From Paracidovorax wautersii (GTDB taxonomy: Bacteria > Pseudomonadota > Gammaproteobacteria > Burkholderiales > Burkholderiaceae_C): DNA of 64,000 nt. The notes below the pieces were generated by a model. The model made no database searches. It had not been told where the DNA came from and saw only the letters and a list, made by a program, of their open reading frames with translations. The stretch is from the NCBI RefSeq assembly GCF_031453675.1, contig NZ_JAVIZX010000001.1:4424001-4488000 (forward strand), in the 5' to 3' direction. Numbering within the stretch: the stretch's first letter is position 1; every line of letters begins with the position of its first letter. The translations under genes were made by a program, and so were the position numbers. Of this stretch, positions 7,031 to 52,876 are shown one piece after another.

Positions 7031-7085
7031 GCCCAATCCGCTGCCAGCGCTTGAGTATCAAGCGCTGGCAGCTATGAAATTAGTA
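7031..7085 (-). repeat. Repeat family 1 copy: perfect 15-bp-stem palindrome behind gdhA
   Basis: Bases 7040-7054 and 7058-7072 are perfect reverse complements with a 3-base loop. Read on the minus strand it gives the family order: AT-rich lead-in, AGCTG, GCGCTT, short loop, AAGCGC, TGG. The strong stem directly behind gdhA could act as a 3' stabiliser or terminator, although the T-tract is weak (TATGAAATT). Confidence 0.8.
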
Positions 7086-7193
7086 CCCCAAGGCGGACGG
7101 GTGCGTGCTCGGTGATCGGGCGTCTGGCATGCGGCTCAGCCAGCCATCGGTTGCCTTCCCTGCTACCGCACCCGGGCAAGCGACACAGGCAAT

Positions 7194-7256
7194 CTCAAGC
7201 CCCATCGGCCTCCAGCGCTTATCTGGCGAGCACAACCAGCTATCAAATATGGAGCA
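7194..7256 (-). repeat. Repeat family 1 copy, diverged
   Basis: On the minus strand this reads TATTTGATAGCTGG, a diverged left arm, then AAGCGCTGGAGGCC. This matches the family layout although the left GCGCTT arm has decayed. It lies in the 380-base gap between gdhA and the LysE-type gene; the rest of that gap holds only repeat copies. Confidence 0.65.
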
Positions 7257-7298
7257 ATAGGCCACCGCCCAGCTGCCTCCCACCTCGAAAGGCCACGG

Positions 7299-7407
7299 AG
7301 CAGGCCACGCCAGTGCACCCGCGGAACGGGCTTTGCCCGGCCGCTGGGTGCGTCCCCCTTCCCGGCGCAGCCGAGAGAAGGGGGAAGCGGCGCAGCCGCT
7401 CAGGGGG
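7299..7407 (-). repeat. Repeat family 2, copy B
   Basis: Homologous to 765-893, with the same ordered blocks (GGAGCAGGCCA, GCGGAACGGGCTTTGCC, CCCCCTTCCC, GAGAGAAGGGGGAAG, CTCAGGGGGATG). As in copy A, the element ends within a few bases of the stop codon of a minus-strand gene, here the LysE-type exporter at 7411. The shared position relative to gene ends suggests a role as 3' UTR or terminator, or insertion preference. Confidence 0.7.
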
Positions 7408-7410
7408 ATG

Positions 7411-8058
7411 TCACCTATTCGCCGCCAACAGCAAGCCGCCCGCGCCCATGAAGAACCCGCCGGTGGCCTTGTTCAGGCGCACCACGCCCCGCTGCGTGCG
7501 GATGACGCGCCGGATCTGCCGGCCGCAGGTGGCGTACACGGCCGTGGAGACGAACTCGGCCAGCAGGTAGACGGACCCCAGCACCAGGAACTGCCGCGCC
7601 GCAGGCTGCGCCGGGTCGATGAACTGCGGAAAGACGGCCGCGAACAGGATGACGGCCTTGGGGTTGGTGATGCCGAGCAAAAACTCCTGCGCGACCAGGC
7701 TGCGCAGCCTGACGGGTTCGCGCGACGGCACGGGCTCGGCGCCTTCGATCAGTTCCAGCCCGCCGAACTCCCGGCTGCGCCAGGCGCGCCAGCCCAGCCA
7801 GAACAGGTAGGCCGCCCCGATCCACTTCACCGCGGTAAAGGCCGCCTCGGACGCCAGCAGCATGGCGCCCAGGCCCACGGCCGAGATCGTCAGGAAGATC
7901 GCGAACGCTGCCGCGCGGCCGACGGTGGCGAGCATGGCCGTCCCCACGCCGGCGCGTATGCCGTTGTTGAGGCCGCAGAAGTTGTTGGGGCCGGGCGTCA
8001 GCGCGATGGCGACGGCCACCGGGGCAAAGAGAAGGGCATCCACAGACACGCTCCACAC
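7411..8058 (-). CDS. LysE/RhtB family amino acid exporter
   Basis: A 215-aa inner-membrane efflux protein with about six hydrophobic segments. The N-terminal family signature is PVAVAIALTPGPNNFCGLNNGIRAG, which corresponds to the LysE/RhtB P-G-P-N motif, and a second hallmark is the loop LGITNPKAVILFAAVFPQFIDP. The length is typical (~205-215 aa). The start is GTG 8058; an in-frame GTG at 8043 (V6) is also possible. Substrate (basic amino acid, homoserine/threonine or cysteine type) cannot be told. It is transcribed alone, with a family 2 repeat at its 3' end. Confidence 0.9.
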   Translation of the reverse strand: MWSVSVDALLFAPVAVAIALTPGPNNFCGLNNGIRAGVGTAMLATVGRAAAFAIFLTISAVGLGAMLLASEAAFTAVKWIGAAYLFWLGWRAWRSREFGGLELIEGAEPVPSREPVRLRSLVAQEFLLGITNPKAVILFAAVFPQFIDPAQPAARQFLVLGSVYLLAEFVSTAVYATCGRQIRRVIRTQRGVVRLNKATGGFFMGAGGLLLAANR

Positions 8059-8285
8059 AGGAAAGCCAAGGGAGGGGCAGTGTAGAGCGTTTGCAGCGCG
8101 CTGTCCCTGCGTGCGCTCTGCCCGTCTGCGCTCTGCCCGCCTGCGCTCTGCCGCCGGCGCTGGGGGAAGCCGTCAGCCCTCTGGCGCCGTCCCCGCTACG
8201 ATGCGGGATCCCCGGCGCGGCCGTGCGCAGCTGCATGGCAGGCCCGGTGGCGTCCCCTCGCCTCCCCCTGAAAGGAAAGCCGTCC

Positions 8286-8525
8286 ATGCCATGCCCCTGG
8301 TGTTCCCGCGAGATCGGCTACCTGCAGATGGGGCGCGCGCACGCTCACTGTCCCTTCTGCGAACGCAAAGCGGCCTATGCCTTCCACCTGCGCAAGGTGC
8401 TGCCCGGCTGGGGCATCACGGCACTGGCGGCGTGGCTGCTGCCCGCCGCTGCCGCACCGGTCGTGCTGGGCGCCGGCTTTGCGCTGTCGCTGCACCGGGG
8501 CATGTATCTGAAGAAATCGTATTGA
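8286..8525 (+). CDS. Small zinc-ribbon membrane protein, hypothetical
   Basis: A 79-aa protein beginning MPCPWCSREIGYLQMG, followed by HCPFCERK. Thus two CxxC pairs (CPWC and CPFC) are spaced about 18 residues apart, as in a zinc ribbon. A single hydrophobic segment follows (about residues 40-68) and a short basic tail ends GMYLKKSY. ATG 8286 is chosen because AAGGA lies about 9 bases upstream and both zinc knuckles are retained; longer in-frame starts add only low-complexity Ala/Cys-rich sequence. I do not recognise a function. It is convergent with the ABC ATPase. Confidence 0.65.
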   Translation: MPCPWCSREIGYLQMGRAHAHCPFCERKAAYAFHLRKVLPGWGITALAAWLLPAAAAPVVLGAGFALSLHRGMYLKKSY

Positions 8526-8545
8526 CCGGCCATCCGGGCCGCCGC

Positions 8546-9193
8546 TCAATCGGGCAGCACCCAGATGTCGCGCCACGGCACGCCGGGCAGCGCCTCGTAA
8601 TGCGCCACCACGATGGCCCGTCCGCCGGCGTCCGCAGCCACCTTGCCGGCCTCTTCCGCCAGGGCGTGCTGCAGGTACTGGATGGACGGCTTGTCCAGGC
8701 CCGCCACCGGCTCGTCCAGCAGCGTGAGTGCCGCGCCGCTGGCCAGCCCGGCGGCCATCAGCACCTTGCGCTGGCTGCCGGTGGAGAGCTGGTACATGGG
8801 CTTGTGCACGTGGGCCTGCAGGCCGAAGCCGTCCACATGCCGCGCCAGCGCCTCGGCATTCCACCGCGGATGGCGCTCAGGGCCTTGCGCCAGCCAGTCG
8901 GCCGCCGTGATCTCGTCCAGCCCGGCGGCGCGCGGCTCCACCCAGTACACCTGTTCCCGGTACGCCCCGCCCTGCGTCTGCAGGGGCACGCCCCGCAGCA
9001 CCAGCGTGCCGGCCTGCGGCGGCAAGGCGCCGGCCAGCAGGCGTAGCGCCGTGGTCTTGCCGGCCCCGTCACCGCCCTGCAGCAGGCTCACGCCGGGCCG
9101 CACCTGCAGGCTCAAACCCTGCAGCAGCGGGCGCCCCGGATAGGCAAAACCCAGGTCCTGCACCTGCAGAACGGTCGCATCGTTTGGGCTCAA
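8546..9193 (-). CDS. ABC transporter ATP-binding protein (orphan, short)
   Basis: A 215-aa single ATPase domain: Walker A QGGDGAGKTTALRLL at about residue 40, Walker B LTLLDEPVAGLD at about 155-165, and an H-loop region IVVAHYEALPG. The signature motif is LSTGSQRKV rather than LSGGQ, resembling CcmA-like and other short exporter ATPases. No permease gene adjoins, so its partner is unknown. The start MSPNDATVLQVQDLGF at 9193 gives a normal N-terminal beta-strand. It is divergent from the conserved hypothetical gene at 9246. Confidence 0.85.
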   Translation of the reverse strand: MSPNDATVLQVQDLGFAYPGRPLLQGLSLQVRPGVSLLQGGDGAGKTTALRLLAGALPPQAGTLVLRGVPLQTQGGAYREQVYWVEPRAAGLDEITAADWLAQGPERHPRWNAEALARHVDGFGLQAHVHKPMYQLSTGSQRKVLMAAGLASGAALTLLDEPVAGLDKPSIQYLQHALAEEAGKVAADAGGRAIVVAHYEALPGVPWRDIWVLPD

Positions 9194-9245
9194 TCTGATC
9201 TCCCTTCATTGGATGGTCTGCAAGGCCTTGCCGGACAATCGCCGC

Positions 9246-9614
9246 ATGACCTTGCACTACCTGGAATTTGACTACAGCGAGGACGCCGAGGGCACGGGCA
9301 CCTGGGACGCCATCGCCAGCGTGGGCGATGCGCACCTGCCGGCCCTGCAGGCGGAGATCGTGTCCGTGCTGGCCTGGGCCGAGGCGGAGTTTCCCGCGCA
9401 GCGCGCGCCCATCGAAGACGGGGGCCGGTGGGACTACGACCTGCAGAGCGAGCCCGAACACGTGGCGCTGCAGTCCCTGCACTATGACGCGGCCACGCGC
9501 CAGCTCGTGCCGCCGATGGCATCCGCCGGCGGCGCGCGCCACACGCTGACCCTGTCGCTCAGCGGCGATGCGGCCTTCGGCGCCGCCTTCCGCAGCCGAT
9601 TCGACCTTTCCTAG
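9246..9614 (+). CDS. Conserved hypothetical protein
   Basis: A 122-aa soluble acidic protein, beginning MTLHYLEFDYSEDAEGTGTWDA. It shows an alternating strand/helix pattern, with a tryptophan-rich centre (SVLAWAEAEF, GGRWDYDL) and a C-terminal strand HTLTLSLSGDAAFG. No signal peptide or membrane segment is visible. Start ATG 9246 is preferred over an upstream in-frame ATG because the extension has no protein-like character. It ends 16 bases before the ABC exporter, so it is probably its operon partner. I do not recognise a function. Confidence 0.7.
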   Translation: MTLHYLEFDYSEDAEGTGTWDAIASVGDAHLPALQAEIVSVLAWAEAEFPAQRAPIEDGGRWDYDLQSEPEHVALQSLHYDAATRQLVPPMASAGGARHTLTLSLSGDAAFGAAFRSRFDLS

Positions 9615-9630
9615 CCCGCTCATTTCCGCC

Positions 9631-11433
9631 ATGGCCTCGCACACCACCAACCCTCCGGAGCCCGGCGCGCCCCGCTCCCTCACGGGCCTGCTGCCTTTCC
9701 TGCGGCCCTATGCCGGGCGCATCGCCATCGCGCTGGTCTTCCTGGTGCTGGCGGCGCTGGCCACGCTGGCGTTTCCGTGGGCGCTGCGCTCGCTGATCGA
9801 CGGCGGCCTGGCGGGCCCGGACAAGGCGGCTCAGGCGATGGCGCTGCGCGGGCACTTCGGCGTGCTGTTCGCCGTGGCCACGGCGCTGGGCATCTTCTCC
9901 GCCGCACGCTTCTACATGGTGAGCTGGCTGGGCGAGCGCGTGACGGCCGACCTGCGCAACGCGGTCTATGCGCACGTGCTGCAGCAGAGCCCGCAGTTCT
10001 TCGAGACCACGCAGACCGGCGAGGTGCTGTCGCGCCTGACGGTGGACACCACGCTGGTGCAGACCGTGGTGGGCTCGTCGCTGTCCATGGGCCTGCGCAA
10101 CGCCGTCATGGGCGTGGGCGCCCTCGCCATGCTGGTGTGGACCAACCCGTATGTGATGTCGGTGGTGCTGCTGGCGATCGTCGTCGTGGTGCTGCCGACG
10201 ATGTGGATCGGGCGGCGCGTGCGCAGGCTCTCGCGCGCCAGCCAGGACCGCGTGGCCGACTCCAGCGCCATCGCCGCCGAGGTGCTCAACGCCATCCCGG
10301 TGGTACAGAGCCACACGGCGGAGGCGCGCGAGGCCGCGCGCTTCGACACGGCCACCGAAAACGCCTTCCGCACCGCCGTGCGCCGCAGCGGCGCCCGCGC
10401 CGCGCTGGTGGCCTTCATCATCATCGCCAATGCCGCCCTGCTGCTGTGGGGCCTGTACCGCGGCACGCAGGCCGTCATCGCGGGCGACATGTCGGCCGGG
10501 CACCTGGGGCAAACAGTGCTGTACGTGATGTTCCTGGCCGGCGCCGTGGCGGTGCTGGGCGAGGTCTACGGCGACCTGCTGCGCGCCGCGGGCGCCACGG
10601 AGCGGCTGATGGAGCTGCTGGCCACGCGCTCGCCGGTGGCGTCTCCGGCCCGGCCGGTGCCCTGCCCGCCCGCGGACGAAGGCCTGGCCGTGGCGTTCGA
10701 GAACGTGCAGTTCGCCTATCCCTCGCGGCCCGGCACGCCTGCGCTGGCCGACTTCGACCTGCGGCTGCGTCCCGGCGAAACGGTGGCGCTGGTGGGCGCC
10801 AGCGGCGCGGGCAAGACCACCGTGTTCCAGCTGCTGCAGCGCTTCTACGATGTGGACGCCGGGCGCATCACACTGGGCGGGATCGACATTCGCTCGCTGG
10901 CGCTGCACGACCTGCGCGGCCGCATCGCCACCGTGCCGCAGGACGCGGTGATCTTCTCGGCCTCGGCGCTGGAGAACATCCGCTACGGCCGCCCCGGCGC
11001 CACCGATGCCGAGGTAATGGCCGCTGCCCGCAGCGCCTTCGCGCACGACTTCATCACCGCCCTACCCGAGGGCTACGCCACCTTCCTGGGCGAGCGCGGC
11101 GTGCGCCTGTCGGGCGGCCAGCGCCAGCGCATCGCCATTGCGCGTGCGTGGCTCAAGAACGCCCCCGTGCTGCTGCTGGACGAAGCGACGAGCGCGCTGG
11201 ACGCCGAAAGCGAACGGGTGGTGCAAGCCGCGCTGGACGCGGCGCTGCATGCCAACGCCGGCCGGCGCATCACGCTGGTGATCGCGCACCGCCTGGCCAC
11301 GGTGCAGGGCGCGAACCGCATCCTGGTACTGGAGCACGGCCGCATCGTCGAACAGGGGCGGCACGCCGAGCTGGTGCAGCGCGGTGGTGCCTACGCGCGG
11401 CTGGCGGCGCTGCAGTTCAGGGCGCAGGGCTGA
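9631..11433 (+). CDS. ABC exporter, fused transmembrane and ATPase domains (MsbA/MDR type)
   Basis: A 600-aa half-transporter: residues ~20-310 form a six-helix type 1 exporter membrane domain (FLRPYAGRIAIALVFLVLA at the start). Residues ~350-595 form the nucleotide-binding domain with Walker A VGASGAGKTTVFQLL, signature LSGGQRQRIAIARA, Walker B VLLLDEATSALDAES and H-loop VIAHRLATV. Such proteins work as homodimers moving lipids or hydrophobic compounds outward. I chose ATG 9631 because the longer alternative at 9568 would overlap the preceding gene. The substrate cannot be read. A GAACGC/GCGTTC hairpin lies at 11459-11475 downstream. Confidence 0.93.
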   Translation: MASHTTNPPEPGAPRSLTGLLPFLRPYAGRIAIALVFLVLAALATLAFPWALRSLIDGGLAGPDKAAQAMALRGHFGVLFAVATALGIFSAARFYMVSWLGERVTADLRNAVYAHVLQQSPQFFETTQTGEVLSRLTVDTTLVQTVVGSSLSMGLRNAVMGVGALAMLVWTNPYVMSVVLLAIVVVVLPTMWIGRRVRRLSRASQDRVADSSAIAAEVLNAIPVVQSHTAEAREAARFDTATENAFRTAVRRSGARAALVAFIIIANAALLLWGLYRGTQAVIAGDMSAGHLGQTVLYVMFLAGAVAVLGEVYGDLLRAAGATERLMELLATRSPVASPARPVPCPPADEGLAVAFENVQFAYPSRPGTPALADFDLRLRPGETVALVGASGAGKTTVFQLLQRFYDVDAGRITLGGIDIRSLALHDLRGRIATVPQDAVIFSASALENIRYGRPGATDAEVMAAARSAFAHDFITALPEGYATFLGERGVRLSGGQRQRIAIARAWLKNAPVLLLDEATSALDAESERVVQAALDAALHANAGRRITLVIAHRLATVQGANRILVLEHGRIVEQGRHAELVQRGGAYARLAALQFRAQG

Positions 11434-11458
11434 GCGGACGGCAGGCACGGGCGCTTCC

Positions 11459-11475
11459 GAACGCTGGAGGCGTTC
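11459..11475 (+). terminator. Hairpin behind the ABC exporter
   Basis: GAACGC (11459-11464), a 5-base loop and GCGTTC (11470-11475) form a perfect 6-bp stem 26 bases after the exporter stop. There is no T-tract, so it is a weak terminator candidate only. Confidence 0.3.
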
Positions 11476-11524
11476 AGCGTTGCACGCATGCCGCTACAGA
11501 GATAAGAGCAGCTTGCGCAAGACG

Positions 11525-11601
11525 CACGCGGCTTTCAAAGCCAAAACCTATCAGAATCCTTAACTGGCAAGCGCATTCAGCTCCTCTTTCAGGAGTGAAC
11601 A
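11525..11601 (-). repeat. Repeat family 1 copy, strongly diverged
   Basis: On the minus strand it reads AAGAGGAGCTGAATGCGCTTGCC followed by an unpaired right half and a TTTTGGCTTTGAAA tail. The left half and the T-rich tail match the family; the right stem arm is lost. It lies between the ABC exporter and the 3' end of the DUF1178 gene. The rest of 11476-11671 shows nothing else. Confidence 0.5.
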
Positions 11602-11671
11602 TCCGAAACTCCAACGACGCCCGCGCCCGCAGGGCCAGCCGTCGCCATGGGGTGCGCTGCGGCCGACGCGC

Positions 11672-12196
11672 CTACTGCAGCGTTTCCTTGGCCGATTCCG
11701 GCAGCAGCAAGGGCAGGACGGCCACGCCCTCTTCCAGCAGCTCGGCCGTCTCCTGCGGAGTGGCCTGGCCGCGGATAGCGCGCTCCTCCGATTCGCCGTA
11801 GTGGATGCGACGCGCTTCCTGCGCAAACCGCGAACCGACGTCTTCGGTGTGGGCGACGATGTGGCGCGCCAGTTGCAGCCAGGCGGCCTGCAACCGGGGA
11901 TCGGGCAGCGGGCCGGCGGGCACGACCGCCGAGCCCGGGTCCGATAGGGCGGCATGGGGCGCGGGATACGCAACGCCCTTTTCCGATCCGGAGGGAACGT
12001 CCGTTCCCGCGGCCCGGGCCGGAGCCTGAGCGCCGAAGTTCAACCGGGGCGCACTGAGCCCCTTGCGGATCTGGCTGGAGCCGCACAGGGGGCACTGCAC
12101 CAGGCCGCGGCCCAGTTGGCTCTGGAAGTCGTCCTCGGACCCGAACCATCCCTCGAAGGCATGGTCGTGCGCACAGAAGAGATCGAGGACTTTCAT
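11672..12196 (-). CDS. DUF1178 family protein
   Basis: A 174-aa protein with the DUF1178 pattern: MKVLDLFCAHDHAFEGWFGSEDDF at the N-terminus, then a CPLCGSSQIRKGLSAPRLNFG segment. The cysteine at residue 8 and the CPLC knuckle look like a zinc or metal site. The C-terminal half is helical and acidic (ETAELLEEGVAVLPLLLPE). Function is unknown for the family. It follows the complex I operon on the same strand about 80 bases after the DUF2818 gene, and may be read through from it. Confidence 0.88.
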   Translation of the reverse strand: MKVLDLFCAHDHAFEGWFGSEDDFQSQLGRGLVQCPLCGSSQIRKGLSAPRLNFGAQAPARAAGTDVPSGSEKGVAYPAPHAALSDPGSAVVPAGPLPDPRLQAAWLQLARHIVAHTEDVGSRFAQEARRIHYGESEERAIRGQATPQETAELLEEGVAVLPLLLPESAKETLQ

Positions 12197-12276
12197 GGAA
12201 CGTTGCGGGTCAGGCCGCGCAAGGTCTTGAAGGGGATGCAGCCGGGTTCCACCACCACCGAGGTGAACCGCTTCGA

Positions 12277-12585
12277 TCAGCCCTTGCGGCGCAGCAGATA
12301 GCGGTACACGAACCCCGGGAAGGCCAGAGTCACGAACAGGGTGCCGGTCACCGCGTAGAACTCCCAGCCCTGGGGCGCGATCTGCCCCGCGCGGCGCTCC
12401 AGCAGCAAGGCCAGCGCGCCGACCACGAAGTACAGCACCACCAGTTCCAGCAGCCGGCCAGGCAGCGGCTTGCGCTGGCTCGGGGCCTGCGGACCGACGG
12501 CGAACCAGCGCTGGTTGATGAACGGCAGATTGGCGGCCACCAGGGCGGCCACGATCACGAGCCAGATCGATGCGGTCTGCGACAT
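12277..12585 (-). CDS. DUF2818 family inner-membrane protein
   Basis: A 102-aa protein with three predicted membrane segments (about residues 5-22, 45-62 and 78-95) and a basic C-terminus YRYLLRRKG. The sequence ASIWLVIVAALVAANLPFINQRW is typical of the DUF2818 proteins found at the end of nuo operons in betaproteobacteria. It starts about 40 bases after nuoN on the same strand. That conserved position suggests an accessory or assembly role with complex I, which is inference. Confidence 0.85.
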   Translation of the reverse strand: MSQTASIWLVIVAALVAANLPFINQRWFAVGPQAPSQRKPLPGRLLELVVLYFVVGALALLLERRAGQIAPQGWEFYAVTGTLFVTLAFPGFVYRYLLRRKG

Positions 12586-12625
12586 GCGGATAGGGGCGCG
12601 GCAGCGTTGGGGTTGCGGCCTGCGG

Positions 12626-14119: not shown

Positions 14120-14143
14120 CTCGTCTCTCTCAGTTCAGTCTGG

Positions 14144-15619: not shown

Positions 15620-15635
15620 TTTTCTTGTCCCTCTA

Positions 15636-17675: not shown

Positions 17676-17706
17676 TCTTGAGAACCTTGCTTGTGTCTGG
17701 CGACCA

Positions 17707-18015
17707 TCAACCCTTGAGGGTGTTGAGGTCTTCCGCGTTGATGCTGGACTTGTTGCGGAACAGCAGAACCAGGATGGCCAGCCCGATGGCGGATTCGGCC
17801 GCCGCCACGGTCAGGATGAAGAACACGAACACCTGCCCGTGCATGTCGCCCAGGTAGTGGGAGAACGCCACGAAGTTCATGTTCACGGCCAGCAGCATCA
17901 GCTCGATGGCCATGAGCAGGACGATGAGGTTCTTGCGGTTCAGGAAGATACCGATCACGGCCAGGGCGAACAGCATCGCGCCCAGCGAAAGATAGTGGCC
18001 CAGCGTCAGGGTCAT
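17707..18015 (-). CDS. nuoK: NADH-quinone oxidoreductase subunit K
   Basis: A 102-aa three-helix membrane subunit of complex I. Typical sequence is [40 protein letters not shown], with the two conserved membrane glutamates (in AIELML and [10 protein letters not shown]) that take part in the central proton relay. Its start overlaps the nuoJ stop by 4 bases (ATGA), which suggests translational coupling. Confidence 0.97.
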
Positions 18016-18680
18016 GGCTTCTTCTCCTCAACGGGGGCGGCAGGAGCCACCTCTTCGGCAGGCTTCTGCGTCACGGCAACCTTCACCATGGCGACACGGT
18101 CGCTGGCACGCACGCGGATCTGCTGGGACGGGTTGATGGCCTTGGAGTCCTTGCGCTGGCGCAGCGTCAGCGCGATGGCGGCGATCATGGCCACCAGCAG
18201 GATCACGGCAGCGATCTCCACGGGATACAGGTACTCGGTGTACAGCAGCACACCCAGCGCCTTGGTGTTGGAGTAAGGCACCACCTGGCCGGCAGCGTCC
18301 ACCATCGTGGCCACGGCCTTCGGTTCGTCCATGCCGCGGAAACCACCCATCAGCACCGCCGCCATTTCCAGGGCGATCAGCGCACCGATGAAGGCAGCCA
18401 GCGGGAAGTGCTTCCAGAACCCCCGCCGCACGGTGTCGATGTGGATGTCCAGCATCATCACCACGAAGAGGAACAGCACCATCACGGCCCCCAGGTACAC
18501 AAGCACCAGGGCGATGGCGAGAAATTCGGCCTTGAGAAGCAGCCAGATGGCCGCAGCTTGGGAGAAGGCGAGAATCAGATGCAGCACGGCATGCACGGGA
18601 TTGCGTGCCGTGATGACCCGGAAGGCTGCGTAGAGCAGCACAACCGAGAACAGATAGAAGAAACCGGTCTTGGCGTCCAT
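18012..18680 (-). CDS. nuoJ: NADH-quinone oxidoreductase subunit J
   Basis: A 222-aa membrane subunit with five helices, including the conserved [21 protein letters not shown] segment (the pi-bulge helix region). A C-terminal extension rich in Ala/Pro/Lys ([20 protein letters not shown]) lies after the last helix and is probably cytoplasmic and unstructured. It sits between nuoI and nuoK in the standard order. Confidence 0.97.
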
Positions 18681-29539: not shown

Positions 29540-29560
29540 GGCGATCAGCTTGAATACAAG

Positions 29561-29618
29561 CAAAAAAGGCTTCCAGCGCCCGCAGGGCAAGCGCCGGAAG
29601 CTCTCATTTCAATAGCAA
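29561..29618 (-). terminator. pnp terminator formed by a repeat family 1 copy
   Basis: Just after the pnp stop, GCTTCC-A-GCGC and GCGC-C-GGAAGC (29569-29579 / 29591-29601) form a 10-bp stem with one mismatch. On the minus strand it is followed by six Ts (29562-29567), a canonical intrinsic terminator. The sequence order (AT-rich lead, AGCT, GCGCTT, GCGC, TGGAAGCC, T-tract) matches the dispersed repeat family 1, so the repeat appears to serve as the terminator. Confidence 0.75.
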
Positions 29619-31907
29619 TCAGCCGTTGTTGCGGTTGTTGCCGTCGTTGTCGCCGTTGCGGGCGGCGCCCGCATCGACGCCAGCGGCCGCAGCCGGAGCC
29701 GCCTGCTCGTGGCGGCCACCGTCACGACGCTCGCCGCGATCACCACCACGGTCGCCACGGTCACCGCGATCGGAACGCTCGCTGCGCTCAGGACGGCCAC
29801 CGTATTCGCCGGCGGGGCGCTCGGTCAGGGCCTTCATGGACAGCTTGACGCGGCCCTTCTCGTCCGTCTCCAGCACCTTGACCTTGACGATCTGGCCTTC
29901 GGACAGGTAGTCGGTGACCTTCTCCACGCGCTCGTGGGCGATCTGGCTGATGTGCAGCAGGCCGTCCTTGCCGGGCAGCAGGTTGATCAGTGCGCCGAAG
30001 TCCAGGATCTTGACCACGGGGCCTTCGTAGATCTTGCCGATCTCGACTTCGGCCGTGATCTGCTCGATGCGCTGCTTCGCGACCTCGGCCTTCTCGGCAT
30101 CGGTCGCGGCGATGGTGATCGTGCCGTCTTCCTCGATGTTGATCTGGCAGCCGGTCTCTTCGGTCAGCGCACGGATCACGGCGCCGCCCTTGCCGATCAC
30201 GTCGCGGATCTTCTCGGGGTTGATCTTCATCGTGTACAGCTTGGGCGCGAAGCTGGACACCTCGGTCTTGGCTTCGCCCATGGCCTCCTGCATCTTGCCC
30301 AGGATGTGCATGCGCGCTTCCTTGGCCTGGGCCAGGGCGACCTGCATGATTTCCTTGGTGATGCCCTGGATCTTGATGTCCATCTGCAGGGCGGTGATGC
30401 CGTTGGTCGTGCCGGCCACCTTGAAGTCCATGTCGCCCAGGTGATCTTCGTCACCCAGGATGTCGGTCAGCACGGCGAAGCGGTTGTCTTCCTTGATCAG
30501 GCCCATGGCGATGCCGGCCACGTGGGCCTTCATCGGCACGCCGGCGTCCATCATCGACAGGCAGCCGCCGCAGACCGAAGCCATGGACGAAGAGCCGTTC
30601 GATTCGGTGATTTCCGACACCACGCGGATGGTGTAGGGGAATTCTTCCTTGGTCGGCAGCACGGCGACGAGCGCGCGCTTGGCCAGGCGGCCGTGGCCGA
30701 TCTCGCGGCGCTTGGTGGAGCCCATGCGACCCACTTCGCCGGTGGCGAAGGGAGGCATGTTGTAGTGGAACATGAAGCGGTCTTCGAACTCGCCGGCCAG
30801 CGCGTCGATGCGCTGCGCGTCGCGCTCGGTGCCCAGCGTGGAGACCACCAGGGCCTGCGTCTCGCCGCGCGTGAACAGGGCGGAGCCGTGCGTGCGGGGC
30901 AGCACGGAGTTGCGGATCTCGATGGGACGCACGGTGCGCGTGTCGCGGCCGTCGATGCGGGGCTCGCCGGCCAGGATCTGGCTGCGGACGATCTTGGATT
31001 CGATGGCGAACAGCAGGTCGCTCACCTTGCCGGCGTCGAAGGCTTCGCCGCTGGCCTTGAGGGCTTCCATCACGCTGGCGTTGGCTTCGCGCAGGGCCTG
31101 CGTGCGGGCTTGCTTGCTGCGGATCTGGTAGACGGCGCGCAGCTTGTCTTCAGCCAGGCCCTTGACCTTGGCGACGAAGGCTTCGTCTTCGGCGGGCGCT
31201 TGCCAGTCCCACACGGGCTTGCCGGCGTCGCGCACCAGTTCATGGATGGCGTTGATGGCGATGTTGGCCTGCTCGTGGCCGAACACCACGCCACCCAGCA
31301 TGATTTCTTCGCTGAGCTGCTGGGCTTCGGATTCGACCATCAGCACGGCGGCTTCGGTGCCGGCGACGACCAGGTCCATCTGCGAGTTCTTGCGGGCGGT
31401 CTGGCCGGGGTTCAGCACGTACTCGCCGTTGATGTAGCCCACGCGCGCAGCGCCAATGGGGCCGGCGAACGGGATACCGGAAATGGCCAGGGCAGCGCTC
31501 ACGCCGATCATGGCGGCGATGTCGGCATCGACTTCAGGGTTGAGCGACACGGTGTGGACCACCACGTGCACTTCGTTCAGGAAGCCTTCGGGAAACAGCG
31601 GGCGGATCGGACGGTCGATCAGGCGGCTGGTCAGCGTTTCGTGTTCGCTGGGCTTGGCTTCGCGCTTGAAGAAGCTGCCCGGGATCTTGCCGGCGGCATA
31701 GGTCTTCTCGATGTAGTCCACCGTCAGGGGGAAGAAGTCTTGGCCGGGCTTGGCCGACTTGGAGGCCGCCACGGTGGCAAGGATGACGGTGCCGTCGATC
31801 TCGACCAGCACGGCGCCGTTGGCCTGGCGGGCGATTTCGCCGGTTTCCATGACGACGGTCTTGTCGCCCCATTGGAAGGACTTCGTGACTTTGTTGAAGA
31901 TGGTCAT
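29619..31907 (-). CDS. pnp: Polyribonucleotide nucleotidyltransferase (PNPase)
   Basis: A 762-aa phosphorolytic 3'-5' exoribonuclease, core of the RNA degradosome. Two RNase PH domains are visible ([29 protein letters not shown] start; second from about residue 310 with [14 protein letters not shown] and SDGSSS-equivalent [14 protein letters not shown]). They are followed by a KH domain ([21 protein letters not shown], about 565) and an S1 domain ([33 protein letters not shown]). The last ~60 residues are an unusual Arg/Asp/Gly-rich then Asn-rich tail. Start ATG 31907 is preceded by AAGGAGT. It lies downstream of rpsO as in most proteobacteria. Confidence 0.97.
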
Positions 31908-31912
31908 GTTGA

Positions 31913-31972
31913 CTCCTTTTGCTTCGGTTTTAATAGCTGACTCCGCAGAACCAGCAAGGGCCGGAGGCAATT
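31913..31972 (+). repeat. Repeat family 1 copy, diverged, in the rpsO-pnp gap
   Basis: Reads GGTTTTAATAGCTG, a decayed middle, then GGGCCGGAGGC, matching the outer parts of family 1 but with both inner stem arms lost. It occupies the pnp 5' untranslated region. In other bacteria that region is the site of RNase III/PNPase autocontrol, so an effect there is conceivable but not shown. Confidence 0.5.
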
Positions 31973-32070
31973 CAGAACACGATGCCATTCCAGTGGACCT
32001 GGCGCCTCCCCGGTGGGGAACAGGGCCATTGGAATGACACAGCTTCGCTCTGCTTTTGCGACTCCGAAGT

Positions 32071-35092: not shown

Positions 35093-35111
35093 GGCGGAGT
35101 TTCTTGAGTGC

Positions 35112-35162
35112 TTCAAAAGATATAGCTACCTGCGCTTATCCATCAAGCGCTGGAGGCCAAAA
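35112..35162 (+). repeat. Repeat family 1 copy, near consensus
   Basis: Reads AAAAGATATAGCTACCT, then GCGCTT (35132-35137), a 7-base loop, AAGCGC (35145-35150) and TGGAGGCCAAAAA. The stem is perfect. It is placed between the start of the dehydrogenase pseudogene and the divergent lipoprotein hydrolase gene, in the shared upstream region; the remainder (35163-35319) shows nothing recognisable. Confidence 0.85.
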
Positions 35163-35319
35163 ACGGCACCAAACGCAAAAGGGGACCGAGGCGGCTGCAC
35201 GGGCGCGGTGCGCACCCTGCATGGTAGCCAAGCACGGAACTTGCAGCGGCTTGCGCATCGGTAAATCCCCGGGGATCGCCGCAACGAACTTTTACGGTGC
35301 TGCAGAGTCTGTTCTTCCC

Positions 35320-39146: not shown

Positions 39147-40158
39147 TGTTTTCCCCCCGCTCTCGCTGCCGGCCTCGCCCGCCTACATCGCGCTGGCCGG
39201 GCCCACCGCGTCGGGCAAGACCGCCGGCGCGCTGGCGCTGGCCGACGCCCTGGCGCCGCACCTGCCGGTGGAGATCGTCAGCGTCGACTCCGCCCTGGTC
39301 TACCGCGGCATGGACATCGGCACCGCCAAGCCCACGCCCCATGAGCTGGCGCGGGTGCCGCACCACCTGATCGACATCCGCGACCCGCTGCAGGCGTACA
39401 GCGCGGCCGAGTTCGTGCAGGATGCCGAGCGCCTGATCGCCGACATCCGTGCCCGCGGCGCGCTGCCTCTGCTGGTGGGCGGCACCATGCTGTACTTCAA
39501 GGCGCTGTTCGATGGCATCGACGACATGCCCGCCGCCGACCCCGCCGTCCGCGCCCGGCTGGACGCGCAGGCCGCCGCCATCGGCTGGCCGGCCATGCAC
39601 GCCGAACTGGCCCGCGTGGACCCGGCCACCGCCGCCCGCCTGGCGCCCGGCGACAGCCAGCGCATCCAGCGCGCGCTGGAGGTGTGGCACGTATCCGGCC
39701 AGCCGCTGTCGAGTTTTCACACTACTAAAAATATAGCTGGCAGCGCTTACCCAGAAAGCGCCGGAGCCCTTTTTTCTTTGGAACCGACCGACCGGGCCTG
39801 GCTGCACGACCGCATCGCCCGCCGGTTCGACGCCATGCTGCAGGACGGCTTCCTGGACGAAGTGCGCCGCCTGCGCGCCCGCGGCGACCTGCACCTGGAC
39901 CTGCCCTCCATGCGCTGCGTGGGCTACCGGCAGGCGTGGGAAGCGCTGGACTTCGAGGCCGCCACCGGCTCCTTCCCGGCCCGGGACCTGCGCGAGCGCG
40001 GCATCGCCGCCACGCGCCAGCTGGCCAAACGCCAGATCACCTGGCTGCGCAGCATGCCCCAGCGCCAGGCCATCGCCTGCGATGCACCGGACGCCACCGC
40101 GCAGCTGGTGCGCGCCGTCACGCAGCGCCTGCGCGGCGATGCAGCGGAGGCGCCATGA
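39133..40158 (+). CDS. miaA: tRNA dimethylallyltransferase
   Basis: A 341-aa enzyme adding the dimethylallyl group to A37 of tRNAs reading UNN codons. Motifs: P-loop [51 protein letters not shown] and the C-terminal [14 protein letters not shown] and [14 protein letters not shown]. Start GTG 39133 has GGAG 6 bases upstream and overlaps the MFS gene. At residues ~197-215 the reading frame runs through a repeat family 1 copy (peptide [18 protein letters not shown]) between SGQPLSSFH and [14 protein letters not shown]. Total length is near normal, so the repeat has replaced or filled a variable loop. Confidence 0.95.
39721..39779 (+). repeat. Repeat family 1 copy inside miaA, in frame
   Basis: ACTAAAAATATAGCTGGCA, then GCGCTT (39743-39748), a 7-base loop, AAGCGC (39756-39761) and CGGAGCCCTTTTTTCTTTG: a complete, near-consensus copy, with local base composition unlike the flanking coding sequence. 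It is translated without interruption; the frame used reads the core as I-A-G-S-A. Confidence 0.88.
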
Positions 40159-43240: not shown

Positions 43241-45862
43241 ATGCTCGCCTTGCTCCGCACCTTCTCCTGGCAGGAACTGCGCCACCATCCCTGGCGCAGC
43301 CTGGCCGCCGTCGTTGCCGTCACGCTCGGCGTGGCGCTGGGCTTTGCGGTGCACGTGATCAATGCCTCTGCGCTGGACGAGTTCTCGCAGGCGGTGCGCT
43401 CGGTCAACGGCCAACCCGATCTGGAACTGCGCGCCACACAGGGCGCGCTGCCCGAGTCGCTCTACGGCACGGTGGCCGCGCACCCGCAAGTCGCGCTCGC
43501 CAGCCCCTGGCTGGAGCTGACGGTGCAGGCGCGCGGGCCCGGCGGCGCCGCGGGTGCTCCGGTGGCCCTGCGCGTGGTGGGCGTGGATGCGCTGGTCGTG
43601 CCCGCCGTCGCCCCGGCCCTGATGCCCCGCCCCGCAGCCGATGCGCCGCGCCTGGCCATGCTGGCGCCGGCCACCGTCTTCCTCAATGCCGCCGCACAGC
43701 AGGCGCTGGGCCTGGCCGGCACAGACGCAGACACAGGCACGGACGGCGCCGCGCGATCGCTCACGCTGCAGGCCGGCCTGCAGACCCACACCGTGCAGGT
43801 CGCCGGCACCGTGGCCGCCGGTGGCGCGCCGCTTGCGGTGATGGACATCGGCGCCGCGCAAGACCTGTTCGCGCGCGGCGGCCAGCTCACCCGCATCGAC
43901 CTGCAATTGCGCCCCGGCGCGCAGCGGGCCGAGGTGGAGCGCAGCCTGCAGGCCCTGCCCGGCTGGCCGGCCGGGGTGGTCGTGGCCGAGCCGGGCGACG
44001 CTGCGCAGCGCGTCAGCAACCTCTCGCGCGCCTACCGCGTCAACCTCACCGTGCTGGCGCTGGTGGCGCTGTTCACGGGCGCGTTCCTCGTCTTCTCGGT
44101 GCTGGCGCTCAGCGTGGCGCAGCGCGCCCCACAGTTCGCGCTGCTGGCCGTGCTGGGCGCCACGCCGCGCCAGCGCCTGGGGCTGGTGCTGGCCGAATCC
44201 GCCGCACTGGGCCTGCTCGGCAGCCTGTGTGGACTGGCGCTGGGCACGGGCCTGGCCGCGCTGGCGCTGCAGGTGCTGGGCGGCGACCTGGGCGGCGGCT
44301 ACTTTGCCGGCGTGCAGCCCGCGCTGCAGTGGAGCCCCGTGGCCGCCGCCGTGTATGGCGCGCTGGGCGTGGCCGCCGCGCTGGTGGGCGGCTGGTGGCC
44401 CGCACGGCAGGCACAGCAGCTGCCGCCCGCGCAAACCCTCAAGGGCCTGGGCGCGCAGGACGGCCCAGCGCGCAGCGGGTGGGTGGGTCTGCTTTTGATA
44501 GCAGGCAGCGCTTTGCTGGCAAGCGCTCCACCCGTTTTTGGCATTCCTCTGGCCGCGTACGCCGCCGTGGGCCTGCTGCTGGTGGGCGGCATCGCCCTGC
44601 TGCCCTGGGCCGTGCAGGCGCTGCTGCACACCCTGCAGCCGCTGGTGCGCGGGCGCGTGCTGCCCCTGCTGGCGCTGGAGCGTGCGCGCCGCATGCGCGG
44701 CACCGCCGCCGTCGCGGTGGGCGGCGTAGTCGCGTCGCTCAGCCTCGCCGTCGCGCTCACGGTGATGGTGTCGAGCTTTCGCGGCTCGGTCATCGAATGG
44801 CTGGACGCCGTGCTGCCCGCGCCGCTGTACGTGCGCATGGCCGGCACCGGCGCGGCGGACGACGCGGCGGCCTTCCCGGGCGGCTTTGCCGAATCGGTGG
44901 CGCGCCTGCCCGGCGTGGACCGCGTGCAGCCCCTGCGCGTGAGCAGCCTGATGCTCGACCCCGGCCGCCCCGCCGTCGCCCTGCTGGCCCGGCCGCTGGG
45001 CGCAGACCCGGCCCAGGCATTGCCGCTGGTGGGCGCCGCCCTGCCCGTGCCCCCCGGCCGCGTGGGCGTGTACGTGAGCGAGGCCATCGTGCAGCTCTAC
45101 GGCGTGCAGCCCGGCGCCGACTGGCCCGCGCTTTCACATTCTTTTCGGCCGCTAGCCCAGGCAGATCAAGCGCAACCAGCTACATTCTTCATAGCAGGCG
45201 TGTGGCGCGACTATGTGCGCCAGTTCGGCGCCGTCGCCATGGACAGCACCGCCTTCGTGCGCCTGACGGGCGACGCGCGTACCAGCGACCTGGCGCTGTG
45301 GCCCACGCCCGGCGCCGACGAAGCCGCACTGCGCGATGCGGTCACGGCCCTGGCGCAAGCCACAGCGGGCGCGGCTGCCGCCACCAGCGCCGCGCCGCTG
45401 GAATTCACCTCCGCCGCCGGTATCCGCGAACGCTCGCTCGGCATCTTCGACCGCAGCTTCGCCGTCACCTACTGGCTGCAGGCCGTGGCCATCGGCATAG
45501 GTCTGTTCGGCATCGCCGCCAGCTTCAGCGCCCAGGTGCTGGCGCGCCGCAAGGAGTTCGGACTGCTCGCCCACCTGGGCCTCACCCAACGCCAGGTGCT
45601 GGCCGTGGTCGCCGGCGAAGGCGCCGCCTGGACCGCCATCGGCGCCGTGGCCGGCACCCTGCTGGGCCTGGCCGTTTCGGTGGTGCTGGTGCACGTGGTG
45701 AACCCGCAGAGCTTTCACTGGACGATGGAATTGCGGGTGCCGGGGGAGAGGTTGTTGGCGCTGGGGGTGGCGGTGGTGGCCGCGGGGACGGTCACTGCGT
45801 GGCTGGCGGGACGGGCGGCTGCAGGGAGGGATGCGGTGATGGCGGTGAAGGAGGATTGGTAG
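43241..45862 (+). CDS. FtsX-like ABC transporter permease (large, two-module)
   Basis: An 873-aa membrane protein with one N-terminal helix (about residues 20-40), a periplasmic domain, then helix groups at ~270-400, ~425-470 and ~750-865. The two FtsX modules are recognised by ALSVAQRAPQFALLAVLGATPRQRLGLVLAE and ASFSAQVLARRKEFGLLAHLGLTQRQVLAVVAGE. Permeases of this build act with a LolD/MacB-type ATPase on lipoproteins or envelope lipids. Two repeat family 1 copies lie in frame, at 44488-44541 and 45134-45195. A strong 7-bp hairpin directly follows the stop. Confidence 0.9.
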   Translation: MLALLRTFSWQELRHHPWRSLAAVVAVTLGVALGFAVHVINASALDEFSQAVRSVNGQPDLELRATQGALPESLYGTVAAHPQVALASPWLELTVQARGPGGAAGAPVALRVVGVDALVVPAVAPALMPRPAADAPRLAMLAPATVFLNAAAQQALGLAGTDADTGTDGAARSLTLQAGLQTHTVQVAGTVAAGGAPLAVMDIGAAQDLFARGGQLTRIDLQLRPGAQRAEVERSLQALPGWPAGVVVAEPGDAAQRVSNLSRAYRVNLTVLALVALFTGAFLVFSVLALSVAQRAPQFALLAVLGATPRQRLGLVLAESAALGLLGSLCGLALGTGLAALALQVLGGDLGGGYFAGVQPALQWSPVAAAVYGALGVAAALVGGWWPARQAQQLPPAQTLKGLGAQDGPARSGWVGLLLIAGSALLASAPPVFGIPLAAYAAVGLLLVGGIALLPWAVQALLHTLQPLVRGRVLPLLALERARRMRGTAAVAVGGVVASLSLAVALTVMVSSFRGSVIEWLDAVLPAPLYVRMAGTGAADDAAAFPGGFAESVARLPGVDRVQPLRVSSLMLDPGRPAVALLARPLGADPAQALPLVGAALPVPPGRVGVYVSEAIVQLYGVQPGADWPALSHSFRPLAQADQAQPATFFIAGVWRDYVRQFGAVAMDSTAFVRLTGDARTSDLALWPTPGADEAALRDAVTALAQATAGAAAATSAAPLEFTSAAGIRERSLGIFDRSFAVTYWLQAVAIGIGLFGIAASFSAQVLARRKEFGLLAHLGLTQRQVLAVVAGEGAAWTAIGAVAGTLLGLAVSVVLVHVVNPQSFHWTMELRVPGERLLALGVAVVAAGTVTAWLAGRAAAGRDAVMAVKEDW
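44488..44541 (+). repeat. Repeat family 1 copy inside the permease gene, in frame
   Basis: GCTTTTGATAGCAGGC, then AGCGCTT (44507-44513), 7-base loop, AAGCGCT (44521-44527) and CCACCCGTTTTTGGC. It is translated as LLIAGSALLASAPPVFG inside a hydrophobic segment, using the same reading frame (I-A-G-S-A) as the copy in miaA. Confidence 0.82.
45134..45195 (-). repeat. Repeat family 1 copy inside the permease gene, reverse orientation
   Basis: On the minus strand: GAAGAATGTAGCTGGTTGCGCTTGAT, diverged right arm, GGCTAGCGGCCGAAAAGAATG. The left half and T/A-rich tail match family 1. On the coding strand it gives HSFRPLAQADQAQPATFF, a soluble loop just before VWRDYVRQFG, without frame disruption. Confidence 0.65.
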
Positions 45863-47350: not shown

Positions 47351-47680
47351 ATGACCAGTTCCAGTAACTCTTGGCTCCCTAAACAATCGCCCGCCTCGAA
47401 GCCGACTAACACCGCAGCGCCGATACGCACTGGTACCCCTGCCCTTGCCGGGCTACGCGCCAGTCGGCATCGTCCTATGTCTGAAGGAGGAATCCACGCA
47501 CCCCACGGGCAGCCTCAAGCACCGGGCTAGCGCGGTCGCTGTTCCTCTTTGCGCTGTGCCGTGCTCGGCTGCTGAGGGCTCGACCATCGTGGAGTCGCCC
47601 CGCAGCTCCACGGCAATGAGCGAGGCCTACTTTGCAGGCTTGCTGGGCCTGCCCTTCGTGGCCGTGATGCCGCGCAGCAC
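47351..47680 (+). pseudogene. Decayed 5' fragment of a paralogue of the PLP enzyme at 49577
   Basis: From ATG 47351 to about 47680 the DNA follows the first ~330 bases of the gene at 49577. Matching stretches include TGGCTCC, ATCGCCC, TCGAAGC, CGCAGCGCCGA, LPGYAPVGI (for LPGYAAAGI), [20 protein letters not shown] and [17 protein letters not shown]. It contains several small indels and a stop (EAD followed by TAA), so the frame changes more than once. It ends abruptly at the 3' end of the MocR gene; the remaining two thirds of the enzyme are missing. It cannot be functional. Confidence 0.85.
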
Positions 47681-49576: not shown

Positions 49577-50632
49577 ATGACGACTCCCTCCCCCTGGCTC
49601 CACGAAGCCATCGCCCACATCGAAGCTGATTACCAGCGCAGCGCCGACACCCACCTGATCCCGCTGCCCCTGCCGGGCTACGCCGCGGCCGGCATCGACC
49701 TGTACCTGAAGGACGAATCCACGCACCCCACCGGCAGCCTGAAGCACCGGCTGGCGCGGTCGCTGTTCCTCTATGCGCTGTGCAATGGCTGGGTGCACGA
49801 GGGCTCGACCATCGTGGAGTCGTCCAGCGGCTCGACGGCGGTGAGCGAGGCCTACTTTGCACGGCTGCTGGGCCTGCCCTTCGTGGCGGTGATGCCGCGC
49901 AGCACCTCGGCCGAGAAGATCGCGCTGATCGAGTTCTATGGCGGGCGCTGCCATTTCGTGGAGAGCGCGGGCGAGGTGTACGAGGCCGCACGGGCCGTGG
50001 CTGCGGAAACGCGGGGCCATTACATGGACCAGTTCACCTATGCCGAGCGCGCCACCGACTGGCGGGGCAACAACAACATTGCCGAGAGCATGTTCACGCA
50101 GATGGCGCGCGAGCGGCATGCGGTGCCGCGCTGGATCGTGGTGGGCGCAGGCACGGGCGGCACCAGCGCCACCATTGGCCGCTATGTGCGCTACCAGCGC
50201 CACGCCTCGCAGGTGTGCGTGGCCGACCCGGCAGGTTCGGTGTTCAGCGCATACCACCGCACGGGCGTGGCCACGCTGACGGCGCCGGGCTCGCGCATCG
50301 AAGGCATCGGCCGGCCGCGCGTGGAGCCGAGCTTCATCCGCACGCTGGTGGACCGCATGGAAGAAGTGGCGGACGACGATTCGATTGCCGCCATGCGCGC
50401 ACTGTCTACCCTGCTGGGCCGGCGCGTGGGCCCGTCCACGGGCACCAACTTCGTCGCCATGCTGCGGCTGGCGCACGAGATGCGCGAGGCCAATCAGCAG
50501 GGCTCCATCCTGTCGCTGCTGTGCGATTCGGGCGAGCGCTACCTGCCCACGTACTACGACGATGCCTGGGTGGAGACGCGCATGGGATCCTGCGCAGCCG
50601 CGCGCGAGCGTGTGGACGCATTGCTGGCCTGA
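49577..50632 (+). CDS. PLP-dependent cysteine synthase/desulfhydrase family enzyme
   Basis: A 351-aa fold type II PLP enzyme. The PLP lysine is in [16 protein letters not shown] (Lys about residue 55), with the substrate loop [20 protein letters not shown] and the phosphate-binding glycine loop [16 protein letters not shown]. The C-terminal [14 protein letters not shown] and [10 protein letters not shown] fit cysteine synthase-like proteins of the Cds1 type, which can act as L-cysteine desulfhydrases. Whether it makes or breaks cysteine cannot be decided. A truncated, decayed paralogue lies about 2 kb upstream, across the MocR gene. Confidence 0.85.
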
Positions 50633-51939: not shown

Positions 51940-51940
51940 G

Positions 51941-51959
51941 CTCAGCGGAACGCGCTGAG
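51941..51959 (+). terminator. Hairpin directly after the AttH-like gene
   Basis: CTCAGCG (51941-51947), a 5-base loop and CGCTGAG (51953-51959) form a perfect 7-bp stem one base after the stop codon. No T-tract follows. Confidence 0.4.
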
Positions 51960-52144
51960 GAATGCCGCTGACCCCCAGCCCGTTCAAAGGCGCTTTTCCA
52001 GCCGCCTGCACGGTACCCACGCCCTTCCCGCCAGGGGGCGCTTCATGGGCCCACGGACCGCGTGCGCCCACCGGCACATCGGTCCCCATGGCCGGTGCGG
52101 CCCGGAAGTCACCCCATGCCGGGACAGCCCCAGGCCGCAAAACA

Positions 52145-52160
52145 CTGTATGAGCAGACAG
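52145..52160 (+). promoter_or_regulatory. LexA-type SOS box
   Basis: CTGTATGAGCAGACAG matches CTGT-N8-ACAG exactly and the flanks (CA before, TA after) fit the extended E. coli consensus. It is immediately followed by a -10-like TAAAAT (52161-52166) and lies 40 bases upstream of the ATG at 52201, an ideal position for repression. The E. coli-type box is known to be used by betaproteobacterial LexA. Confidence 0.65.
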
Positions 52161-52200
52161 TAAAATACCGGGCTCGCCAGCTTCCAAAGATCGCCCAGAC

Positions 52201-52692
52201 ATGTCCGTAGAACCCGACCAAGCCGTTGCCTCCGTCTTCGAAGACCGTCTTTGGCACCACAACGGCTGGGAGGCCCGCGTCGTCAAGAACGAAGACGACG
52301 ATGGCTGGGCTGTGGCCATGACCCAGGATGGGCAGGCCGAACCCGCCCTGGTCGGCCCCTGGACCATGGGCCGCGACAAGAAGAACCCCAAGCCGCTGGA
52401 CATGGCAGCGTTCAACACCCTGGTGAAGACGGCCCACGAAGTCATTCGCCGGGCGGAGCAGCACCAGGCGGCGCTGTTGCACAAGGAGATCGAGATCGAC
52501 GTGCGCGGCTCGCGTGTGACCGTCGCTCTCGACATCGAACCCGACGAGGACAACCCCTCCGCCACGCTCACCGCCACGGCGGCAGACGGCAGCGAACTGG
52601 CGAAGGTGCGCGTCCGGCCGGACCACCGGCTGAACCGGGCCTCTGCGCAGCGCTGGGCAGAGGCAGGGTATCCGCGGCCCAGCGAGGACTGA
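52201..52692 (+). CDS. Conserved hypothetical protein, predicted SOS-regulated
   Basis: A 163-aa acidic soluble protein. The N-terminal half reads EDRLWHHNGWEARVVKNEDDDGWAVAMTQDG and PWTMGRDKKNPKPLDMAAFNTLVKTAHEVIRRAEQH (a long helix). The C-terminal half is beta-rich (LLHKEIEIDVRGSRVTVALDIEPDEDNPSATLTATAADG) and ends with a helix RASAQRWAEAGY. No catalytic motif is visible and I do not recognise a function. A perfect LexA-type box directly overlaps its promoter. It is monocistronic. Confidence 0.8.
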   Translation: MSVEPDQAVASVFEDRLWHHNGWEARVVKNEDDDGWAVAMTQDGQAEPALVGPWTMGRDKKNPKPLDMAAFNTLVKTAHEVIRRAEQHQAALLHKEIEIDVRGSRVTVALDIEPDEDNPSATLTATAADGSELAKVRVRPDHRLNRASAQRWAEAGYPRPSED

Positions 52693-52811
52693 GGCACGAA
52701 GGGTGCCGAGCACGGTGCCGGGCGGGGACGCCAAAGGGGCTGCGCCAGGCGCGGGTTGATGTCAGAACGCGTAACAGGTGTGGCGGACACCGCGGTGGGT
52801 GGGTCGCTTAG

Positions 52812-52876
52812 ATTGCTATTTATTCGATAGCTGACAGCGCAGGCCATTAAAGGGCCGGAGGCCGATTTTTCTTTGA
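52812..52876 (+). repeat. Repeat family 1 copy, intergenic
   Basis: Reads TATTTATTCGATAGCTGACAGCGC, AGGCCATTAAA, then GGGCCGGAGGCCGATTTTTCTTTGA: ends are near consensus, with the inner arm altered to GGCC pairs. It lies in the 400-base gap between the SOS-box gene and livM; the rest of that gap holds only the hairpin at 52997-53028. Confidence 0.75.

Follow-up and report, generated by a model that had tools for sequence, protein, structure and literature searches.

A REP-like palindromic repeat family with a symmetric 124-bp form in Paracidovorax wautersii and related genomes

The palindromic repeats analysed here were met in a 64,000-nucleotide stretch of Paracidovorax wautersii (contig NZ_JAVIZX010000001.1, positions 4,424,001 to 4,488,000 of the forward strand; hereafter the window), and their closest described counterparts include repetitive extragenic palindromic (REP) sequences of the GTAG type, REPINs, BRE and the Rickettsia palindromic elements. 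As treated in parts of PMC3733652 and PMC2817692, GTAG-type REPs (REP/SMAG) occur in many copies, form a hairpin beside a tetranucleotide head, lie mostly downstream of genes and sometimes inside them, and have a REP-associated tyrosine transposase (RAYT) nearby, all of which applies here as well. The present family differs in its ATAG head, in an A/T-rich lead with a CT, in copies that are mostly single and 56% alike, and in a 124-bp form of locked length. Known REPs are more alike among themselves, and a REPIN consists of an inverted pair of full REP hairpins. In the portion of PMC8049555 that describes them, REPINs resemble the 124-bp form, whose two halves are inverted about a spacer with their heads pointing outward, and they share its long persistence. 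Unlike a REPIN, each half of the 124-bp form is one arm of a single long hairpin and not a full hairpin, and the form is a minority, found at no fewer than 81 loci among copies that mostly stand alone. Rickettsia palindromic elements also have in-frame copies within genes, but the two genes studied here gain few or about ten residues and not a whole repeat. These elements are named in part of PMC3733652. BRE, described in part of PMC3110155 as about 90 bp long, on average 69% GC, often tandem and present in at most 29 copies per genome, is likewise a short betaproteobacterial repeat that is intergenic and at times lies inside genes. By that description the GC-rich, often tandem BRE is unlike the present elements, which are AT-richer than their genome (39-61% GC for full-length elements against 67% for the window).

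No description of the repeat in Comamonadaceae was found in the open-licence papers searched. Six Comamonadaceae genus names are absent from the text of PMC3733652, and in PMC2817692 only Variovorax, of six such names, appears, once and in another context. The family is apparently undescribed in the open papers searched, its new part being the length-locked 124-bp form, and it adds a large REP-like family whose symmetric form has a near-fixed length. Our confidence is evenly divided on the reading that we put forward, namely that these repeats are an ancient REP-class palindromic family of Comamonadaceae, inherited vertically, kept or decaying according to lineage, and not actively spreading.

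Anatomy and number of the two repeat forms

A preliminary description of the window had listed ten copies of 55-65 bp in both orientations, in intergenic and coding DNA. All ten are present, nine of them strong, and they are split 5/5 between strands; the copies at 39719, 44484 and 45131 sit within reading frames and the others are mostly intergenic. The length needs correction: conservation spans 67 columns (8-74, among copies selected only by the core pattern), and what was listed as the copy at 11525 makes up the right-hand half of a 124-bp form that runs from 11483 to 11606. Three models were used, of which R1 was trained on the nine window copies and finds those nine by construction, R2 on 70 copies with the same nine among them, and R3 on nine 124-bp copies. 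The 70 aligned copies comprise 49 sampled ones and 21 top model matches, and are thereby biased toward good copies. The tenth copy, absent from the training sets of R1 and R2, is matched by R2 at 11530-11606 on the minus strand (26.2 bits, E 5.5e-7). In a consensus scan with 30 specified letters, 8 window loci score at least 22 and the ninth copy (45147) scores 21, the top score in ten windows simulated with an order-1 Markov model never being above 21. Among Rfam models only a tRNA reaches the cut-off in the window, and the repeats match no curated RNA model. The copies are listed below with genes called by a simple codon-usage finder made for this analysis.

7021..7097, minus strand: 67-bp-form repeat, convergent intergenic (own gene finder), next to the 3' end of a gene of the glutamate dehydrogenase type (PF00208); R2 58.0 bits, training member
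7189..7265, minus strand: 67-bp-form repeat in the same convergent intergenic region as 7021..7097; R2 61.3 bits, training member
11483..11606, no strand assigned: symmetric form of 124 bp on the 3' side of an ABC transporter gene; R3 94.8 bits, R3 training member
29550..29626, minus strand: 67-bp-form repeat overlapping the end of the polynucleotide phosphorylase gene and continuing beyond it; R2 57.7 bits, training member
31911..31987, plus strand: degenerate 67-bp-form repeat directly upstream of the called polynucleotide phosphorylase start; R2 41.8 bits, training member
35100..35176, plus strand: 67-bp-form repeat, intergenic (own gene finder); R2 54.2 bits, training member
39711..39787, plus strand: 67-bp-form repeat in frame within a gene and translated there (12 residues); R2 57.0 bits, training member
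44476..44552, plus strand: weak match to the 67-bp form, lying in frame within the gene for an FtsX-type permease (PF02687); R2 40.3 bits, training member
45129..45205, minus strand: 67-bp-form repeat, antisense in the same FtsX-type permease gene as 44476..44552; R2 46.7 bits, training member
52805..52881, plus strand: 67-bp-form repeat, intergenic (own gene finder); R2 62.4 bits, training member

The gene that holds the 39711..39787 copy is one that we take to be miaA. Both R2 and the weight matrix rank the copy at 44484 last among the nine, and its sequence may have arisen where it stands. At 44476-44552 the permease codons of repeat-free relatives are same-length homologues, suggesting such an origin; the copy also occurs in another genus (G020).

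The 67-bp form consists of GCT, nine A/T-rich nucleotides, ATAGCTG, a stem (GCGCTT, a 7-nt loop and AAGCGCT), a T/A-rich stretch and a weak CTTGAAA-like tail, with unpaired positions near the foot of the stem. The consensus head is ATAG, its AG is present in 70/70 copies, and AGC at columns 25-27 is likewise invariant in 70/70. Nine nucleotides ahead of ATAG, at columns 12-13 and outside the search pattern, stands a CT that is kept both in the genome of the window, G000 (C 35/49, T 41/49), and in the repeat-richest genome, G230, with 535 pattern matches (C 68/73, T 69/73). Conservation in the tail of own-genome copies is weaker (column 67 C 25/49, column 68 T 30/49, column 72 A 34/49). Over the 70 copies, 75.7% of helix 2 cells are paired, so that the GC-rich palindrome beside the head that marks the GTAG REP superfamily is found here too. 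Among the 70 copies, 10 have a 7-nt loop that differs from ATCCATC by at most one letter and 7 have one equally close to its reverse complement GATGGAT, while no stem scored as flipped, as though only the loop had inverted. Hairpin inversion in G230 was considered and rejected: the 'flipped' copies were palindromic elements matched on the wrong strand, and removal of double hits reduced 96 raw matches to the 73 copies used.

The 124-bp form, recognised from overlapping matches on opposite strands, carries a CT-ATAG-GCGCTT half at each end, inverted, with a fixed 48 bp between the arms; this centre has its own inverted repeat, CAAGG-TTCA/TGAA-CCTTG. The R3 scan of the genome, in which 150 of 1358 candidates were scored so that counts are lower bounds, gave at least 146 matches at at least 81 loci; 72/81 lay outside training, and 80/81 were exactly 124 bp long, a constancy that is partly ascertained, as ungapped scans and models favour ungapped copies. 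The exact length recurs in G347, G423, G230 and G116. Among 23 copies of the 124-bp form identity averages 52% and reaches at most 64.5%, and 9/9 R3 training copies are intergenic. Two repeat forms of nearly exact length thus exist. About 6.5 kb 3' of the RAYT gene, one intergenic position is filled by the 124-bp form in two genomes, G000 and G116; in others the short form lies there, in either orientation.

That the genome holds hundreds of copies, as first proposed from the window, is borne out. With at most one mismatch, ATAGCTN4GCGCTTN7AAGCGC has 118+120 = 238 matches against 0 for the reversed control pattern. Sampled evenly, 20 stretches of 20 kb each (400 kb) yielded 49 classified elements, to which the window adds 10; at least two further elements at stretch ends (L041:19809, L044:19911) were dropped, having no called gene on one side. 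Extrapolation from this sample gives about 560-580 copies in the 4.57-Mb genome. The genome scan with R1 scored 150 of 2587 first-look candidates, all of which matched at E of at most 3.3e-4, a lower bound on the number of copies. A dispersed palindromic family is upheld.

Across the taxonomic family, at least one pattern match occurs in 55/250 genomes (39/141 genera), with 1 to 535 matches each. In the order, 8/200 genomes have matches, and the 5 of these outside the family hold 1 to 4 each. Exact matches in named records (Acidovorax, with 12/15 loci, Giesbergeria, Extensimonas and a Burkholderiaceae bin) and plasmid matches indicate that the host family is probably Comamonadaceae, to which the repeat is then essentially confined, in line with the first association.

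Divergence, shared sites and placement of the copies

The 70 own-genome copies align without gaps, and yet their closest pair is 82% identical and the mean identity is 56%. In G230, with 73 copies, one pair is identical and the next reaches 82%; the identical pair is a local duplication, since its left flank is 98% identical. Sites are also old. In G020, which belongs to another genus, the miaA site and the two FtsX sites all hold a copy; the miaA site was also scored in G018 and G019, of other genera, and the site at 45129..45205 likewise scored in other genera. Around the RAYT gene, 50/72 elements fall into position clusters common to at least 3 genera, against a null mean of 19 and maximum of 39 over 2000 shifts (single linkage at 130 bp, 20 genomes of 13 genera; the cluster at the RAYT gene itself mixes 5' and 3' copies). 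One shared cluster lies in the coding tail of a conserved protein, so that part of the sharing may reflect protein constraint. About 4.88 kb 3' of the RAYT gene, in 13/20 genomes (about 70 bp off in G230), repeat-like DNA ends a reading frame, antisense, as read in the three genomes translated.

These data bear directly on the proposal of active or recent REP/RAYT spreading that accompanied the first description, which we now consider highly improbable. It draws on the hundreds of copies, on a RAYT-like gene with an open frame and on matches in three plasmid records (Diaphorobacter, Comamonas and Acidovorax). In addition, three congeners in which no arm was found near 11483 have a shorter gap there, the differences being 78, 179 and 177 bp. 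The sampled copies, however, include no near-identical ones except the local duplication, old sites are common to genera, and there is no match in phage records and none of the strict pattern in viral contigs. The near-identical copies and clean empty sites of a recently mobile element were thus not found, and the length difference at 11483 is not clean. The comparison of orthologous sites suggested at the time speaks partly against mobility: the miaA and both FtsX sites are filled in G020, and most elements around the RAYT gene fall into clusters common to at least 3 genera.

A motif that accumulates in place, like a DNA uptake signal, would be hardly credible as the source of the family. It would suit the decay seen in some lineages, the copies within genes that leave length almost or wholly unchanged, and the first FtsX copy, which seems to approach the consensus codon by codon, but no short core is over-represented beyond the elements: 16/22 occurrences of GATAGCTG and 11/12 of TTTGATAGC lie within them.

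Elements are concentrated between genes (48/59, although intergenic DNA makes up 17.6% of the sequence; 11/59 lie in genes). By gap type, there are 14 in 43 convergent, 31 in 241 tandem and 3 in 41 divergent gaps. High copy number, extragenic location and gene 3' ends, which together characterise the GTAG REP superfamily, are accordingly all found. No clear replication-strand bias was seen in 150 positions, the GC skew in the sample being too weak to locate origin or terminus.

A somewhat unlikely alternative is that selection keeps the repeats as binding or transcript-end sites for a host factor, in which case mobility would be irrelevant or past and loss of the factor would bring loss of the sites. 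The gap-free alignment of 70 copies only 56% identical, the sites common to different genera and the 124-bp length kept at 80/81 loci despite a mean identity of 52% (n=23) are all consistent with it. So is the same 20-kb region in eight species of the genus of the window, where no element reaches the weight-matrix threshold and R2 adds one weak match. Against it, length constancy is partly ascertained by the ungapped search, and in many congeners the repeat has decayed or disappeared from the three in-gene sites while their length has changed little if at all; the stems give evidence on both sides, as set out below.

The RAYT-like gene, proposed hairpin copying and possible transcript ends

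If the family is an ancient one of the REP class, a RAYT-type (TnpA-REP) HUH transposase would once have made its copies by way of single-stranded hairpins cut at CT, the ATAG head serving as guide. Copying would now be rare or over, given how far the copies have diverged from one another and that old sites recur in different genera; some intergenic copies may be kept as hairpins, perhaps as transcript ends, and others would decay. The data show directly the anatomy, numbers, distribution and age of the repeats, their two forms and the near-fixed length; which enzyme copied them, how it cut and why copies are retained is what we infer. Hairpin copying by such an enzyme would account for the CT and the AG, for the inverted form, for the position of copies near gene ends and for the copy found at the 3' end of the RAYT gene itself. 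In E. coli, TnpA-REP cuts at CT, and GTAG has been proposed as a guide (part of PMC8266576); together with this, the CT kept 5' of the head supports the proposal of REP-type cutting. REP-like in anatomy, the family may be one member of a RAYT-REP pair.

The genome of the window has one RAYT-like gene, with an open frame (NF047646, 81.7 bits; cut-off 80). In 11/20 genomes (13 genera, chosen from repeat-bearing ones), a repeat copy lies within 130 bp of the RAYT gene, 9 of these at its 3' end and 9/9 with the head outward. A transposase whose own ends match the repeat had been suggested as a check: the gene exists, but its ends are its own. It is bounded by a terminal inverted repeat, GGGGTCAGATTCCAATTA, at 25/30 loci on the 3' side and 13/30 on the 5' side (at most 4 mismatches), and thereby resembles the genes called 'TIRYT' in part of PMC3733652. 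GGGGTCAGATTCCAATTA is not dispersed, with 0 occurrences in 464 kb of own-genome sample at 3 mismatches. When the RAYT 3' flank is compared with the A/T-rich lead of the repeat, the best stretch ends 0-3 nt before TGTCCC in 21/30 loci (7/13 in genomes without pattern matches), with shuffle p from 0 to 0.845 per locus, so that this likeness is no more than a hint. G230 has 20 Y1_Tnp matches, some full-length and many fragments.

Behind the polynucleotide phosphorylase gene (pnp), the copy at 29550..29626 reads, on the pnp strand, as a hairpin followed by TTTTTT and is terminator-like. The stem sequence at this site differs among G000, G001, G004 and G014, with both sides of pairs changed, and folds in 4/4; at the two pnp sites both flanks were covered in 3/12 relatives. 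These compensatory changes also speak for selection on host sites. The family might be taken for ordinary look-alike intrinsic terminators, given this copy and the preference for gene 3' ends, but that is very unlikely: primary sequence is common to copies outside the stem, some copies are in frame in genes, and T-runs are oriented irrespective of transcription. Moreover, window positions 1-20000 show no excess of terminator-like sites (9 against 8.5 in shuffles). Of the three copies in that part, one, 7189-7265, is touched by a terminator-like site, partly.

Several observations weigh against an ancient REP-class family kept partly as hairpins. RAYT-like matches (E of at most 1e-30) occur in 232/250 family genomes, with or without repeats, which are present in 55. 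Every genome with at least 5 pattern matches has one (34/34, against 232/250 overall), but RAYT presence alone is uninformative, because it is equally common where repeats are absent. Parts of PMC2817692 state that RAYTs are flanked by two inverted copies; here inverted copies on both sides were found in 1/20 genomes (G423 only), so that the arrangement of a REPtron is not general. GGGGTCAGATTCCAATTA is unlike the palindromic repeat, and G308 and G406, with 57 and 79 pattern matches, have no Pfam Y1_Tnp match at E 0.001. The head is ATAG where REPs of the GTAG type have GTAG, and its first position is G in only 7/70 copies. No clean empty site was found among the sites compared (MiaA, FtsX, 11483), and at the first FtsX site, as in MiaA, orthologues without the repeat are nearly equal in length. 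The MiaA stretch varies by a few residues between families, and the second FtsX site has about ten more residues in the genus and its close relatives than in other families; with the gap at 11483, these differences do not fit a simple 67-bp insertion. Covariation across paralogous copies is weak (35 cells changed on both sides against 20.7 in shuffles, and 7 pairs so changed against 6.3). Stems of intergenic copies are no better than those in genes, which tells equally against host-functional sites, and tail T-runs show no significant tie to the direction of incoming transcription (p 0.26 and 0.44). The likeness to REP/RAYT systems first claimed thus stands for anatomy, for placement and for a RAYT-like gene often with a 3' copy, and is weakened by a gene just as common without repeats.

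Another arrangement, which we rate as quite unlikely, is a genome-wide, length-locked system of sites in two forms (67 bp, and 124 bp with dyad symmetry) whose reader would be a single dedicated protein; the RAYT-like HUH protein, single-copy and present family-wide, is a plausible candidate, turned to host use. Selection would then keep the sites across genera with little or no copying, and lineages dropping the system would lose all of them. That repeat number runs from 0 to more than 500 among related genomes while the RAYT-like gene stays makes the family a natural test case for the persistence of RAYT genes and for what sustains repeat populations.

Outside the repeats, the window contains two pairs of similar stretches. 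The stretches 55025-55533 and 56342-56850 are adjacent and paralogous (identity 80-83%), and 47430-47680 and 49655-49905 are duplicated stretches with an identity of 84-91%.

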